Shown one piece after another: positions 4,750 through 8,873 of a stretch of DNA of 37,654 nt (positions are counted from its first letter, which is position 1; every line of letters starts with the position of its first letter). The translations under genes and the position numbers were made by a program. The stretch is from an uncultured Lachnospiraceae bacterium. GTDB taxonomy: Bacteria; Bacillota; Clostridia; Lachnospirales; Lachnospiraceae. Below the pieces are notes generated by a model, which had not been told where the DNA came from, made no database searches, and was given only the letters and a program-made list of their open reading frames with translations. Location: contig CANRIG010000026.1 in assembly GCA_947630595.1 (NCBI GenBank), positions 1 through 37,654 of the forward strand, given 5' to 3'.

Positions 4750-4801
4750 GCCGCGGACTGTGGAATGCTGTGATTCAGAGGCAGCGGAAAGGAAATGAAG
4801 C

Positions 4802-6688
4802 ATGAAGGAAATGACGGTATTTGATCAGTACGGGAATTCGTTAAATGATGTCGTCCAGTATGATGTCGATGTCATGGTGTATGTCAAGCGGGATGAGATC
4901 ACCAAGGAATACCCGGTGCATTTTTTCAACCGGAAATGCACGTCGGCATATGTTGTGGAATCCAAATATTCGGAGGGGACGCTGAAAGCGAAGATTCCCA
5001 ACCGTCTGCTGCGTGAGGAGTATCCGGTGGTCGGGTACGTATACGTCACGGATGATGCAGGGGAATCGAAAAGCCTGTATGGTTTCAAGCTGTCCGTAAC
5101 CCCGCGGCCGAAACCGTCCGATGTTGTGTTCGTCGACACAAAGGATTACATAGACGTCACCGAGGTGCTGGCGGAATGCAGGGAATACGCCCAGAATCTG
5201 GAAGAATCCGTGAGTGCCGCCGAGGCATCTGCACAGGCATCTGAGGCAAGCCGGCAGGCTGCCGATCAGAGCGCAACGGATGCGGAAGCGGCGAAAACTG
5301 CGGCTGAAACGGCAGCCGGGAACGCTGCGGATTCTGAACAGAGCGCGTCGGAAAGTGCACAGAGCGCTGCGGATAGTGCGGCCGAGGCAAAAGCGGCAGA
5401 AACGGCCAGCGAGCAAAACGCGGCAGCCGCGGAGAGTGCGCAAACTGCGGCGGCAGAATCCGAGAAAAATGCAAAAGTGTATTCCGATAACGCGGATGCA
5501 AAAGCCGAACAGGCAGACGATGCCGCCAAAAGGGCTGCGGCCAGTGCGGCCGAGGCTGCCGCATCGGAAACGGCCAGCGGCCAAAATGCAGCGGCCGCGG
5601 AAGAATCCAAAAATGCAGCGGCGGCATCTGAGCAGAACGCAAAGACCAGCGAGACGGCCGCGGAGAAGTGGTCGAAGCTGTCCGAAAGCTATGCGCACGG
5701 CGGAACGGGTACGCGCGATGGGGAAGGCGTGGACAATTCCCAGGCATACTGCGAGCGGGCGGAAAAGGCCGCCAAACAGGCCGAGTCCATTGTTGGCGGC
5801 GATTTTGTGCCGAACTCTGACCGGGGCATCCCGGGAGGCGTCGCGACGCTGGATGATACCGGGAAAGTGCCGGAAAACCAGATTCCTGACAGTGTCGGGA
5901 GCGTGAAGGGCGTCAAGGGCGAAAAGGAAGATAAATACCGCACCGGCGAGGTCAATATCACGAAAGAAAATATCGGCCTTGGCACGTCGGAGGAGCTGAT
6001 CGGGGTGCTGGGTTACACGCCGGTCAATAAGGACGGCGGCGACACGGCAGATACGGTGACGACGTTTGAGTCTGCTGATACGGTCACGGAGACAGAGCTT
6101 ACCGCATGGACGGATGTGCCAAAGCTGGAAAGCGGGGAGAAGCATTCCTCTATTTTCGGCAAGGTATCTACGATGTTCAGAAATGCGCGGTATCTGTTCA
6201 AGCTGATGGGAAAGACAGACATCTCGAAGATCGGCGATGCGACGGTCACCGGCGCGCTGGCGGCGTTGATGCGGGACAAGCTGAATGTGTCGGATGTAGT
6301 CGACAACCTGCTTTCGACAGCGGCAGACAAGCCCCTGAGCGGCAATATGGGAAAGGAACTCAAGACGCAGCTTGATGAACTAAACACGAGAACGAGTAAA
6401 CTGACTTCATTTGTAATTTATAAAGAAACAATACAACCCAACAATAAATTAGATATAAATATCTATATTGAAGAAAATACACTGCCAAACTGCTGCATAA
6501 TAGGCGTAACAAACACGACGCTTGCAGATACGGGAGTTTATATTTCATCTGGATATACACCAAATCGTCACAAGATCAGCGCCTTAATCGACACGTCCAA
6601 TATTAAAGTTGAAACAACCGAGGGTAACTGGTTTAGCATTACAAACAACTCAGGCTTTGCATGTTTTGTTAAAATATTAGCATTCTAA
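4802..6688 (+). CDS. Phage tail fibre / receptor-binding protein with switchable C-terminus
   Basis: The 628-residue product has an N-terminal beta domain (about 1-115) like BppU-type baseplate proteins. Next comes a long Ala/Glu/Ser-rich coiled coil (about 135-310), a fibre motif of the GGVATLDDTGKVPENQIP type near 340-360, and a small tip domain. The constant part ends near residue 530 at an inverted repeat (6378-6392). The last 98 codons are AT-rich, unlike the GC-rich upstream part. The stop lies tail to tail with the opposite-strand cassette. The tip should contact the host surface; by analogy with other phages, its exchange changes adsorption range. The start has ATG with GGAAATGAAGC upstream, a modest ribosome site, and follows the spike gene by 52 bases. 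Confidence 0.83.
   Translation: MKEMTVFDQYGNSLNDVVQYDVDVMVYVKRDEITKEYPVHFFNRKCTSAYVVESKYSEGTLKAKIPNRLLREEYPVVGYVYVTDDAGESKSLYGFKLSVTPRPKPSDVVFVDTKDYIDVTEVLAECREYAQNLEESVSAAEASAQASEASRQAADQSATDAEAAKTAAETAAGNAADSEQSASESAQSAADSAAEAKAAETASEQNAAAAESAQTAAAESEKNAKVYSDNADAKAEQADDAAKRAAASAAEAAASETASGQNAAAAEESKNAAAASEQNAKTSETAAEKWSKLSESYAHGGTGTRDGEGVDNSQAYCERAEKAAKQAESIVGGDFVPNSDRGIPGGVATLDDTGKVPENQIPDSVGSVKGVKGEKEDKYRTGEVNITKENIGLGTSEELIGVLGYTPVNKDGGDTADTVTTFESADTVTETELTAWTDVPKLESGEKHSSIFGKVSTMFRNARYLFKLMGKTDISKIGDATVTGALAALMRDKLNVSDVVDNLLSTAADKPLSGNMGKELKTQLDELNTRTSKLTSFVIYKETIQPNNKLDINIYIEENTLPNCCIIGVTNTTLADTGVYISSGYTPNRHKISALIDTSNIKVETTEGNWFSITNNSGFACFVKILAF
6378..6392 (+). repeat. Left inverted repeat of the invertible tail-fibre segment
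   Basis: AACTAAACACGAGAA lies inside the fibre gene, spanning codons for Leu-Asn-Thr-Arg. Its exact reverse complement occurs at 7011-7025. Extending outward by six bases, 4 of 6 positions also match, so the site is about 21 bp with 19 matches. This is the expected crossover site for DNA inversion. Confidence 0.85.
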
Positions 6689-7010
6689 TGGAATTGCACT
6701 GTGAACGATGTTTCAAAAGCGGCAACATAGTTACTATATTTGTCACTCCCAGCAATAATGTATTTTATATTTGCAATATCTCCGGTTTTTGTTATTGAAT
6801 AAGACGTTACAGGTGTAGGATTTAATGGTTGCCCGAAAACATAAGCACCGTTGCACCTTATAACAGCTTTGGGATCATATAATCTCATGCCAGAAATATT
6901 TGACAATCCTTTCCCTAAATACAAACTAAAATACGCCACGTTTCCCATCTCTGTTAAGTATCCGCAACACATAACATTGATGGAAATTTCGTCGCCGGGG
7001 TTAAAATTGC
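6685..7010 (-). CDS. Silent alternative C-terminus of the tail fibre (no start of its own)
   Basis: On the minus strand an open frame runs from the right inverted repeat (7011-7025) to a TAG at 6685-6687, giving about 108 residues. It begins SNFNPGDEISIN and ends FTVQFH. No ribosome site precedes the internal ATG at 6970-6972, so I do not read it as an independent gene. If the segment between the repeats were inverted, the codons run on from the constant fibre part in frame through ACG AGA AGC AAT. The product resembles the present tip in plan: a short Pro-x-x-x-x-Ile-Asn start (PNNKLDIN versus PGDEISIN) and a similar length. It is therefore a stored alternative receptor-binding tip. Confidence 0.8.
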
Positions 7011-7025
7011 TTCTCGTGTTTAGTT
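7011..7025 (-). repeat. Right inverted repeat of the invertible tail-fibre segment
   Basis: TTCTCGTGTTTAGTT is the perfect reverse complement of the site at 6378-6392. It sits directly at the 5' edge of the minus-strand cassette, exactly where a crossover would join that cassette in frame to the fibre. The 79 bases from here to the next gene hold only an A-rich leader with a ribosome site. Confidence 0.85.
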
Positions 7026-7104
7026 AATTAACATCACGTCGAAACCGGCGCAAAAATATGTAACCAAAAAACAACCCACCAAAACCAGAAAGGGGAAAAG
7101 AAAC

Positions 7105-7497
7105 ATGGATAAAATTATTTTAAAAGACGGAACAGAAATCGAAATTCGCAGAGGGGCCGGGCTGTCCGGCATCACGACGGACGTTGCTGACTATGACGCC
7201 TTGGCGGAGCTGTCCGGCAAGCTCACAGTCGAAAACCTTGCCGAGATAAAGGTGGTCGGCCCGGAAACGGTCATTGTAGATGATGACGGCGCGGAAAGCC
7301 GCAACGTGATCGGTATCTATACCAATATGACCACGATCGAGCCGAAATTCCGCGTGACCGAGAAAAAGGAAGGCGGCCTTGCGGTGACGTTCGGCCTGCG
7401 GGAGCGGACGCCGGAAGAGATGCACTACAGCGACCTTGCGCAGCAGATGACGGACACACAGATGGCGCTCTGCGAAGTCTATGAACTGCTGGCATAA
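7105..7497 (+). CDS. Small phage late protein, function unknown
   Basis: A 130-residue acidic, soluble protein beginning MDKIILKDGTEIEI. It follows a good ribosome site (GAAAGGGGA, about 10 bases before the ATG). No membrane segment, signal peptide or known catalytic motif is visible. It lies between the fibre tip cassette and the CD1375-type genes, where many Clostridia prophages carry a short protein with a similar start. That suggests a tail-tip accessory or structural role, but this is inference from position only. The frame and codon use match the surrounding late genes, so the gene itself is well supported. Confidence 0.75.
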   Translation: MDKIILKDGTEIEIRRGAGLSGITTDVADYDALAELSGKLTVENLAEIKVVGPETVIVDDDGAESRNVIGIYTNMTTIEPKFRVTEKKEGGLAVTFGLRERTPEEMHYSDLAQQMTDTQMALCEVYELLA

Positions 7498-7517
7498 AAG
7501 AAAGGGGGATGTGACAG

Positions 7518-7625
7518 ATGGCAAAGGTATATGCAGACCTTATCAGGAAAGGCATGAAGACTATTGGCGATGTGCCGGAGAAATTGCGGGACGCCGTCCA
7601 GAAGATTCTGGATGGTGAAGCATGA
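7518..7625 (+). CDS. CD1375-type small phage protein, copy 1
   Basis: A 35-residue protein beginning MAKVYADLIRKGMKTIGDVP, preceded by AAAGGGGGATGTGACAG. The pattern VY-x-x-LI-x-KG-x-KTI-x-DVP-x-x-LR matches the short CD1375/XkdX-like proteins found after tail fibre genes in Clostridia and Bacillus prophages; their function is not established. The stop overlaps a possible ATG of the next frame (CATGATG). The next gene is a clear paralogue, so the two probably arose by duplication. Confidence 0.75.
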   Translation: MAKVYADLIRKGMKTIGDVPEKLRDAVQKILDGEA

Positions 7626-7681
7626 TGCGCATGTTGCTTTGGCTGGTCATAAAATTCATGTGCCAAGGGGAGGTGAGGGAT

Positions 7682-7810
7682 ATGGCAGTGGTATATGCGA
7701 CGCTGATCGTCAAGGGGAAAAAGACGATCGGGGACGTACCGGAGAGAATCCGGGAACAGGTCAGGCAGGTGCTGATCGACCTTGACTGCCCGGAGCTGGC
7801 CGGGGAGTAA
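7682..7810 (+). CDS. CD1375-type small phage protein, copy 2
   Basis: A 42-residue protein beginning MAVVYATLIVKGKKTIGDVP. It is alignable along most of its length to the preceding gene. I chose the ATG at 7682 because GGAGGT lies 7 bases upstream and the protein then aligns with copy 1 from its first residue. An in-frame ATG at 7622 overlapping the previous stop would add a 20-residue hydrophobic extension. That alternative could be used by translational coupling but is less likely. Confidence 0.72.
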   Translation: MAVVYATLIVKGKKTIGDVPERIREQVRQVLIDLDCPELAGE

Positions 7811-7945
7811 AACGCCGGATTGCAGACGTTCACCTCTCAGTCTATGATGGGGCTGGGAGGTGATTTTGTGGATATACGGGAAACTATTATTGATACGGTT
7901 ATGGCCGCCAAATAGACGCATATGAGCACCGGTGAATCCGGCGTT
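7811..7945 (+). ncRNA. Candidate structured RNA with sequestered ribosome site
   Basis: The element is closed by a perfect 11-bp inverted repeat, AACGCCGGATT (7811-7821) with AATCCGGCGTT (7935-7945). Inside, TCACCTCTCAG (7830-7840) pairs with CTGGGAGGTGA (7853-7863) in an 11-bp stem with one G-U pair and a 12-base loop. This second stem covers the whole ribosome site GGAGGTGA of a 15-codon ORF. A run TTTTATTTT follows shortly after the closing stem. The nested architecture resembles type I toxin mRNAs or a regulated leader of prophages, but no known family is claimed. Confidence 0.5.
7868..7915 (+). CDS. Putative 15-residue peptide behind a masked ribosome site
   Basis: GTG at 7868 follows a near-ideal ribosome site (GGAGGTGA, 4 bases before the start codon). 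It encodes MDIRETIIDTVMAAK, ending at TAG. An in-frame ATG at 7844, in the hairpin loop, would give 23 residues. The peptide is amphipathic rather than strongly hydrophobic, so it is not an obvious membrane toxin. Such a strong ribosome site buried in a hairpin suggests controlled translation. It may be a real small protein, a leader peptide or a decayed toxin; the sequence alone cannot decide. Confidence 0.35.
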   Translation: MDIRETIIDTVMAAK

Positions 7946-8003
7946 GATATGCTTTTATTTTGCATCAAAAATGGGAGGCTGCTATGAAATACAGAATCAG
8001 GGC

Positions 8004-8023
8004 AGAGCCGCAGGGCTCTTTTT
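8004..8023 (+). terminator. Possible intrinsic terminator
   Basis: AGAGCC and GGCTCT form a 6-bp stem with a 4-base loop, followed by five T residues. The stem is short but GC-rich. It would separate the small-gene region from the lysis genes or act as a partial stop. A 26-codon ORF (7984-8064) reads through it and is not convincing as a gene. Confidence 0.45.
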
Positions 8024-8067
8024 GTATGCGTTTTTGCCGGCAGATGCCGGGGAAAGGAAGGTAAGAC

Positions 8068-8325
8068 ATGACACAATGGGATGTGGTGACGGTGATCATC
8101 GCCATAGTGGGGCTTGCGCTGTCCGTGGGCGCGCCGATTATCAAGCTGAATACGTCCATCACAAGGCTGACCACCAAGATCGACGGGATGGAAGACAGCA
8201 TGGATGAGCTGACCGCGCGGAACAGTAAATCGCATGAACGGCTGTGGCAGCATAATGACAAGCAGGACAAAGAGATCGCTGATCACGAAAAGAGGATCAC
8301 AGTTCTGGAACATGAAAAGCAATAA
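8068..8325 (+). CDS. Small membrane protein with coiled coil, lysis-region
   Basis: An 85-residue protein with one N-terminal membrane segment (about residues 5-25, VVTVIIAIVGLALSVGAPII). A Lys/Glu/Asp-rich coiled coil follows to the end, with heptads such as ITRLTTKIDGMEDSMDEL. The ribosome site is GGAAAGGAAGG before the ATG. It precedes the holin and endolysin genes, so a role in lysis or as an XhlA-like partner of the holin is likely. XhlA has its membrane segment at the C-terminal end, so the topology differs. A spanin-like role is not expected if the host has no outer membrane. Confidence 0.68.
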   Translation: MTQWDVVTVIIAIVGLALSVGAPIIKLNTSITRLTTKIDGMEDSMDELTARNSKSHERLWQHNDKQDKEIADHEKRITVLEHEKQ

Positions 8326-8360
8326 ACAGGCCGAGGAGCCCGGTAGAAAGTGAGGTTGTT

Positions 8361-8699
8361 ATGGAAGACGTTAGAGTTTTAATGCAGTACTTATCATATG
8401 CCTTGATGGCGATCGGCGTGTTGGCGTTTGTGGTCAGCATGGTAGTGCAGGTGATCAAGGAGATGCCGAAGCTGGCAGAAATCCCGACCAATGCAGTTGC
8501 CCTGGTGGTATCGCTGATTCTGTGCCCGGTGGCGGTGATCGTGGCGTGCCAGTATTTTAAGATCGTAATCACTTGGTACTATGTGTTTGCATCATTCATC
8601 GCAGCATTTATTGTGTACCTGGTATCAACCGGCGGGTGGGAACGTGTCCGCGAAATGTGGGACAGAACACTGTATAAAGACGATGGAGAGGGCGAGTGA
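8361..8699 (+). CDS. Phage holin-type membrane protein
   Basis: A 112-residue protein with three hydrophobic segments: about residues 10-30, 45-63 and 70-91. The C-terminus is charged and acidic (WDRTLYKDDGEGE). Holins form lesions in the cytoplasmic membrane that release or activate the endolysin. Size, topology and the position just before the endolysin all fit, although the exact holin family is not recognised. The ATG follows GTGAGGTTGTT, a moderate ribosome site, 35 bases after the previous gene. Confidence 0.75.
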   Translation: MEDVRVLMQYLSYALMAIGVLAFVVSMVVQVIKEMPKLAEIPTNAVALVVSLILCPVAVIVACQYFKIVITWYYVFASFIAAFIVYLVSTGGWERVREMWDRTLYKDDGEGE

Positions 8700-8834: not shown

Positions 8835-8873
8835 GTATCTATGCTGCAGATGGGCAGCAGAAAGGAGTGGGAC

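Follow-up and report, generated by a model that had tools for sequence, protein, structure and literature searches.

How might a prophage exchange the tip of its tail fibre when a second, reversed tip lies behind the fibre gene between inverted repeats and no recombinase gene adjoins it? This question is raised by contig C26 of an uncultured Lachnospiraceae bacterium, probably from the gut (genome G000), which was analysed at its full length of 37,654 bp (the window) and belongs to an assembly of 151 contigs that is 99% complete by markers. The contig opens with a long ORF that is cut at the contig start and that we read as a tape-measure gene, followed by an SPP1-type Dit gene (PF22768, 1620-2345), a prophage endopeptidase-tail gene (PF06605, 2371-4746), the fibre gene, the putative switch, a small conserved gene, a set of small genes that includes one with a weak holin match, and an endolysin gene, to the right of which the genes look chromosomal. 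The fibre product matches tail PHROGs, and PF22337 below the cut-off. Coordinates of the features are given in the table.

Features of the putative fibre-tip switch on contig C26
Feature	Position	Strand	Basis
Tail-fibre gene, 628 aa in the present orientation	4802..6688	+	ORF list, Pfam and PHROG searches
Constant part of the fibre	4802..6377	+	last ~120 aa share 66% identity with the C5 fibre's constant end
Left putative crossover site, AACTAAACACGAGAA, read in frame as (E)LNTR	6378..6392	+	repeat search, genome search, matrix
Predicted invertible segment, 618 bp, GC 0.36	6393..7010	.	in silico inversion, GC
Tip A, 97 aa plus stop, currently joined to the fibre	6395..6688	+	ORFs, in silico inversion, BLASTP
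Tip B, 108 aa plus stop, silent; in frame with the fibre after inversion	6685..7011	-	
Right putative crossover site, reverse complement of the left	7011..7025	-	
Conserved gene 3' of the switch, 130 aa, no assigned function	7105..7497	+	homologue searches

A sequence-only reading of this DNA had reported a perfect 15-bp inverted repeat, extending outwards with about 19 of 21 positions paired, and both copies were recovered at the same places, with an extension of 21 nt at 90%. At an arm spacing of 200-1500 bp, the window has no second perfect inverted repeat that is 15 bp or longer, and when 4801-8500 was shuffled by a first-order Markov model such a repeat arose in 4 of 2000 trials. The enclosed segment is AT-rich, as had been described, when set against flanks with GC contents of 0.57 and 0.52. 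Inverting it in silico yields an open fibre of 638 aa through LNTR-SNFNPGDEISIN, bearing out the claim that the second frame joins the constant part without a shift or stop. However, 7.4% of sham inversions at other breakpoints (n=30,250) also give at least 95 codons past the left breakpoint, and the open frame taken alone is thus modest evidence for a switch.

The two tips are each about 100 residues long, as the sequence-only reading had it. Its remark that they start alike carries no weight, as they have no significant similarity to one another (best BLASTP E 9.9), and neither Pfam nor PHROGs gave a usable match to the tips at an E limit of 1 (best E 0.026). The minus-strand frame had also been described as having no start of its own; an internal ATG is in fact present (ORF 6685-6972), and what stands of the description is that 13 codons of the frame precede it.

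The same two-tip plan is found in a second prophage of this genome, on contig C5, and with it the evidence for a switch becomes strong. Searching the genome with the 15-mer at up to two mismatches gave four matches, all of them exact, two on C26 and two on C5; a backwards-read control gave nine matches at up to two mismatches and none at up to one. The C5 copies form an inverted pair 566 bp apart at the end of a fibre gene whose N-terminal part is different from that of the C26 fibre and whose constant end is related to it (see table), and the gene downstream is 91% identical to its C26 homologue over 116 aa. Both orientations of the C5 fibre are open in silico (366 and 359 aa), with tips of 92 and 85 aa that differ from those of C26. 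No significant similarity was detected among the four tips, the best pair being the two from C5 (E 0.046). The identical site pair on C5, at a switch that likewise has no recombinase gene on its contig, lay outside the DNA open to the sequence-only reading, and the marks that the two loci have in common suggest that one enzyme could serve both prophages.

Among 397 genomes of the family the exact 15-mer is present in one, namely its own, and absent from the other 396; the family-wide control pattern has two matches, in two other genomes. It is likewise in one of the 47 genomes of the genus. With one mismatch, it occurs as a single copy in each of five further genomes of the genus, where the control has eight matches, and no inverted partner was seen at those five loci. 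In viral contigs the 15-mer was found in 21 stretches, one copy each, with no inverted pair. A chance origin of the repeat was considered and rejected in view of the Markov shuffles, the C5 pair and the absence of the 15-mer from the 396 family genomes.

No match to PF00239 or PF00589 is present on C26 at E 0.001, in keeping with the earlier statement that the window lacks a recombinase. Seven PF00589 and five PF00239 matches are found in the genome, the latter confined to C24, C32 and C53, and none of the twelve is on C26 or C5. The sequence-only reading had proposed looking through the genome for a recombinase beside a similar 15-bp site, and this search came back only to C26 and C5, neither with a recombinase. 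Both prophages are broken off at a contig end within the putative tape-measure gene, such that their left arms are not on these contigs. G000 gave no match to the capsid-like protein of L181, the left part of a phage whose C5-like fibre is described below (L077); this says little about the left arm of the C5-type prophage, as this module may differ. On contig C6 a stretch with integrase, repressor-like and ATPase-like genes (L036 9785-19001; G000:C6:54784-64000) has the appearance of a prophage left arm and is possibly the missing arm of the C26 or C5 prophage. A tandem pair of tyrosine integrase-like genes, encoding 428 and 400 aa, is located on C16 (L034 10388-12889; G000:C16:25387-27888).

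Fibre tips are exchanged by inversion in the Gin, Cin and Min systems of phages Mu, P1 and p15B, which use a serine invertase; Gin/Hin-type sites are palindromic, with a dyad about a two-base core, and a recombinational enhancer is bound by Fis. The C26 locus had been likened to this Mu/P1-type plan, and the likeness holds in that a fibre tip would be exchanged by inversion; we do not file the locus there, and the evidence points instead to an Xer-like tyrosine recombinase. Unlike the Gin/Hin systems, the window has no adjacent serine recombinase and its site has no dyad, the best symmetry about a two-base centre being 6/12, as anticipated by the comment that the repeat does not resemble Gin/Hin sites. 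Should a Gin/Hin-type serine invertase act nonetheless, the 192-aa serine recombinase on C24 would be a candidate (L028 17716-18294; G000:C24:39715-40293, near a contig end), as it matches the PHROG 'DNA invertase' family phrog_125 at E 2.1e-58. Against this stand not only the form of the site but also the absence of TAAACACGAG from nine stretches of this genome that hold PF00239 or PF00589 recombinase genes, and the tyrosine recombinases carried by related fibre loci, and we consider a serine invertase very improbable.

These related loci were reached in part through the conserved gene downstream of the switch, which is present in eight of the 397 family genomes, including its own, and also lies 3' of other two-tip or multi-tip fibre loci. 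Seven loci in six of the seven other genomes were analysed, with G127 left out. Two of them (L069 and L074) encode, within the fibre-tip cluster, an Xer-like tyrosine recombinase (331 or 351 aa), and a third (L075, in genome G117) has the same plan as the window: fibre, reversed tip, inverted site pair and no recombinase. No reversed tip was seen in L071 or L073, and L072 is truncated by the end of its contig. The remaining locus (L070 11323-11974, in G203) has the two-tip layout with a reversed tip, with repeats that are just 78% complementary, and is perhaps a dead switch. The C26 locus could likewise be a relic that inverted while its lineage had an invertase and is now locked in one orientation, an account in line both with L070 and with the failure to find the invertase family described below in the same assembly. 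However, in two prophages the sites match perfectly and the fibre is open either way round, and each prophage runs off the end of its contig, which therefore lacks the left arm, so that a relic appears unlikely.

Searching genome_contigs with the constant end of the fibre recovered seven loci in four assemblies, five of the loci labelled as MAG and two as isolate C51_74_MI_BP; the titles of six name Lachnospiraceae or Acetatifactor and that of one 'Akkermansia'. The last of these (L077, CANQSY010000035.1) is titled 'uncultured Akkermansia' despite its C5-like fibre and is perhaps mis-binned. Among viral contigs, the full fibre and tip B have no relative, tip A has one weak match (38%), and the constant part has one short relative (L058). 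Roseburia phage Jekyll, the constant end of which matches at 62%, was considered as a relative of the switch and rejected, as it has no inverted pair at the corresponding place.

Several of these relatives change tips at the site. The contigs L080 and L081, from a single MAG, agree at every position for 6,206 bp, as far as the last base of CTAAACTCAAATTTAA, after which their tips differ. Ahead of the site, L077 and C5 are 95-96% identical in windows of 100-600 bp; the two part inside the 15-mer, where L077 continues into a third tip. Of the seven genome_contigs relatives, six break off 16-276 bp from where the site core begins, and the seventh (L082) has N joins there, as is expected of assemblies in which alternative continuations exist; these tip changes and contig ends all come from relatives, none being the window's own locus. 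L078 and L079, from MAG NALB_7861_4, have different upstream genes and GAGCTAAACACGGGTATGG in common, end 16-19 bp from the start of CTAAACAC, and are perhaps another case of two phages sharing a site in one genome. A search of related prophages for the flipped arrangement, as had been suggested, revealed no relative of this same C26 prophage in the opposite orientation, and its yield was instead the finding that tips change exactly at the site.

A two-tip inversion alone cannot give the third tip of L077, so tip exchange between phages also happens. The 15-mer might accordingly be viewed as a conserved joint for swapping tips between phages, with inversion not the main event, and the C26 and C5 fibres, which are otherwise different and have a constant end in common, would fit this too. 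Such a joint has no need of a second, inverted copy beyond a silent reversed tip, which is nevertheless present in both prophages and in L075, L165 and L084. Swapping can coexist with inversion, and as the principal account we think it improbable. An invertible fibre-tip switch at C26 is well supported by comparison with the C5 copy, the recombinase-bearing relatives and the tip changes at the site in relatives.

In one genome_contigs relative (L082) tips, sites and recombinase pieces lie in an N-joined scaffold, with single N joins at 8867 and 9994 inside the tip and recombinase cluster, and the scaffold order is probably wrong owing to inversion variants. Its recombinase led to an IMG/VR locus (L084) ordered as fibre, site, tip, reversed tip, site, recombinase, site, tip, reversed tip, site. 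Two different inversions there would give open fibres of 318 and 312 aa in place of the present 306 aa, and in silico inversion similarly gives alternative open fibres at L075 and L165.

At E 1e-50 or better the L084 recombinase has at least 58 matches in at least 50 of the 397 family genomes, a lower bound in that at most five candidates per genome were scored. Twenty neighbourhoods were taken, mostly of the best-scoring matches (19 of the 58, plus one from a separate profile search). All five tested loci with an hsdS-like appearance (L153, L158, L160, L161 and L163) have an hsdS domain by Pfam, and the IMG/VR locus L085 contributes a sixth hsdS-linked recombinase. In other neighbourhoods six upstream genes were compared with PHROGs: five have tail or fibre matches, and the one at L156 matches only families of unknown function; the L084 fibre has no PHROG match, and the remaining neighbourhoods were judged by eye. 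A profile of four recombinases (A3) retains R, K, H, R, H and Y, the residues expected of tyrosine recombinases, and its best relatives of solved structure are XerC-like, XerA and XerD proteins. In the recombinase tree, L084, L082 and L166 lie on one side of a branch from the six hsdS-linked recombinases with support of 100/100, and the fork joining L166 to L084 and L082 is weak (85/30). At L166, a perfect 20-bp inverted pair of GAATTAAACACGAAGAGGAT bounds about 330 bp (5588-5917; G481:C51) and ends about 100 bp before the recombinase start, such that inversion there could switch the recombinase's own promoter.

The sites at these loci, many of which consist of TAAA(C/T) and a few further bases, often followed by a TTTA-like half, bear on which enzyme would act at C26. 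Inverted pairs of at least 12 bp with TAAA or TTTA were recovered at 20 of 23 loci; some of these pairs, for example at L149 and L152, have the look of gene-length repeats or of coincidence. Site likeness follows the recombinase clade, as with the sister recombinases L157 and L165, which share AAATAGTGATTTAG. A matrix of 11 TAAACAC sites (10 distinct) from L084, L082 and L166 places the two window sites first and second among all positions on both strands, and the C5 sites first and second within their 24-kb stretch; because the training sites were selected for likeness to the window site, the ranking is a consistency check and no blind test, and a third window position nearly equals the window sites (14.05 vs 14.09 bits). 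With a matrix from other clades (13 sites) the window sites are at rank ~197. Part of the TAAACAC conservation could stem from the coded Leu-Asn-Thr, although the first L166 site pair bounds the 330-bp stretch, which has no open frame of 90 aa or more. The window site is, by its sequence, consistent with the TAAACAC type of the L084, L082 and L166 recombinase loci.

No member of this invertase family was found at E 1e-50 in the G000 assembly, in which both prophages are cut at contig ends. The best matches there to the invertase profile are an XerD-like gene on C62 (2.5e-37) and a gene encoding 351 aa on C23 (4.1e-29), and one or other of these host chromosomal tyrosine recombinases might throw the switch, particularly as the genome is nearly complete by markers and these are its recombinases most similar to the profile. 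Both, however, are on long branches far outside the invertase family, site type tracks the invertase clades, and the 15-mer is absent from 396 family genomes that presumably have Xer genes of their own; a host enzyme is for these reasons rather unlikely.

That the enzyme may instead act in trans from another element is supported by genome G117, where, with one mismatch allowed, the site TAAATAGTGATTTAG is found at four places (three of them exact; reversed control 0): two bound a solo switch on its contig C7 and two lie beside a recombinase on C44. Both loci have open alternatives in silico, of 286 and 300 aa and of 147 and 129 aa, respectively. This sharing of a site is a correlation, in which a solo switch and an enzyme elsewhere in the genome co-occur.

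Among described systems, the window resembles the Rin shufflon of bifidobacterial prophages more than Mu or P1. Rin has a constant receptor-binding protein with alternative tips of ~95-100 aa, short asymmetric sites in the gene and inverted beyond the silent tips, and an XerD-like tyrosine invertase (PMC6109161, 2018, Sci Rep); a Rin-like counterpart with 8-bp sites is described from Eggerthella lenta (PMC8778435). The window likewise has a constant part with opposed alternative tips, dissimilar and of about 100 residues, and an asymmetric site in the gene that recurs, inverted, past the silent tip; in C26 as in C5 the fibre is open either way round. In Rin the invertase is adjacent, there are several tips, and the sites are of 11 bp (TTCCCTAACCC) (PMC6109161), whereas the window has two tips and a 15-bp site, neither C26 nor C5 carries an invertase, and the XerD-like invertase is found only in relatives. 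As no tyrosine invertase lies next to the tips, we do not file the window as a Rin member. A simpler locus that lacks a recombinase and has an 8-bp site (CAGGGTTA) is described in the same article, with help in trans suggested (PMC6109161), and this is the nearest published match found. In Streptococcus pneumoniae, the tyrosine recombinase PsrA inverts hsdS at 15-bp inverted repeats in coding DNA (PMC7096588), which is like the window in its repeats and recalls the hsdS loci in which members of the invertase family sit elsewhere; the PsrA target, by contrast, is a methylase specificity gene. Prophage inversions are also described in four species of Proteobacteria (PMC5903667). Among the open-licence PMC titles and abstract openings listed, none told of such switches in Lachnospiraceae phages or of a site common to two prophages in one genome, which is no proof of absence.

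We favour, with a probability of roughly 0.7, the explanation that the C26 locus is a two-tip fibre switch without a recombinase of its own, on which a tyrosine invertase from elsewhere acts. The two tips lie tail to tail between the inverted 15-bp sites, the left of which is translated within the fibre gene, and a site-specific recombinase would invert the segment between them and so replace tip A with tip B on the same shaft, presumably with a change in the binding target of the virion. Most probably, the enzyme is an Xer-like tyrosine invertase of the kind that adjoins TAAACAC-type sites in related fibre loci, supplied from outside the locus, either by the unassembled left part of the C26 or C5 prophage or by another element, and the same enzyme would also serve the C5 switch. 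The site and its type, the layout, both open frames, the second copy and the relatives are observed; for C26 itself we infer which enzyme acts, that it acts in trans, that the segment inverts, and that the tips bind receptors. More tentatively, and at somewhat less than even odds, co-resident prophages in the Lachnospiraceae may carry solo switches with a common site that are thrown together in trans by one Xer-like invertase of another prophage or element, from a family found elsewhere in hsdS loci, such that a single enzyme would set the host-binding state of several phages.

If this is true, fibre switching would be a distributed trait, in which small enzyme-less switches ride on the invertase of another element. 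It may explain both the enzyme-less look of such loci and the breaks of metagenome contigs inside them. It would also become testable whether a site can predict the invertase that serves it, as site type and recombinase clade covary here, and whether prophages that share a cell coordinate their host-range switching or exploit one another's.
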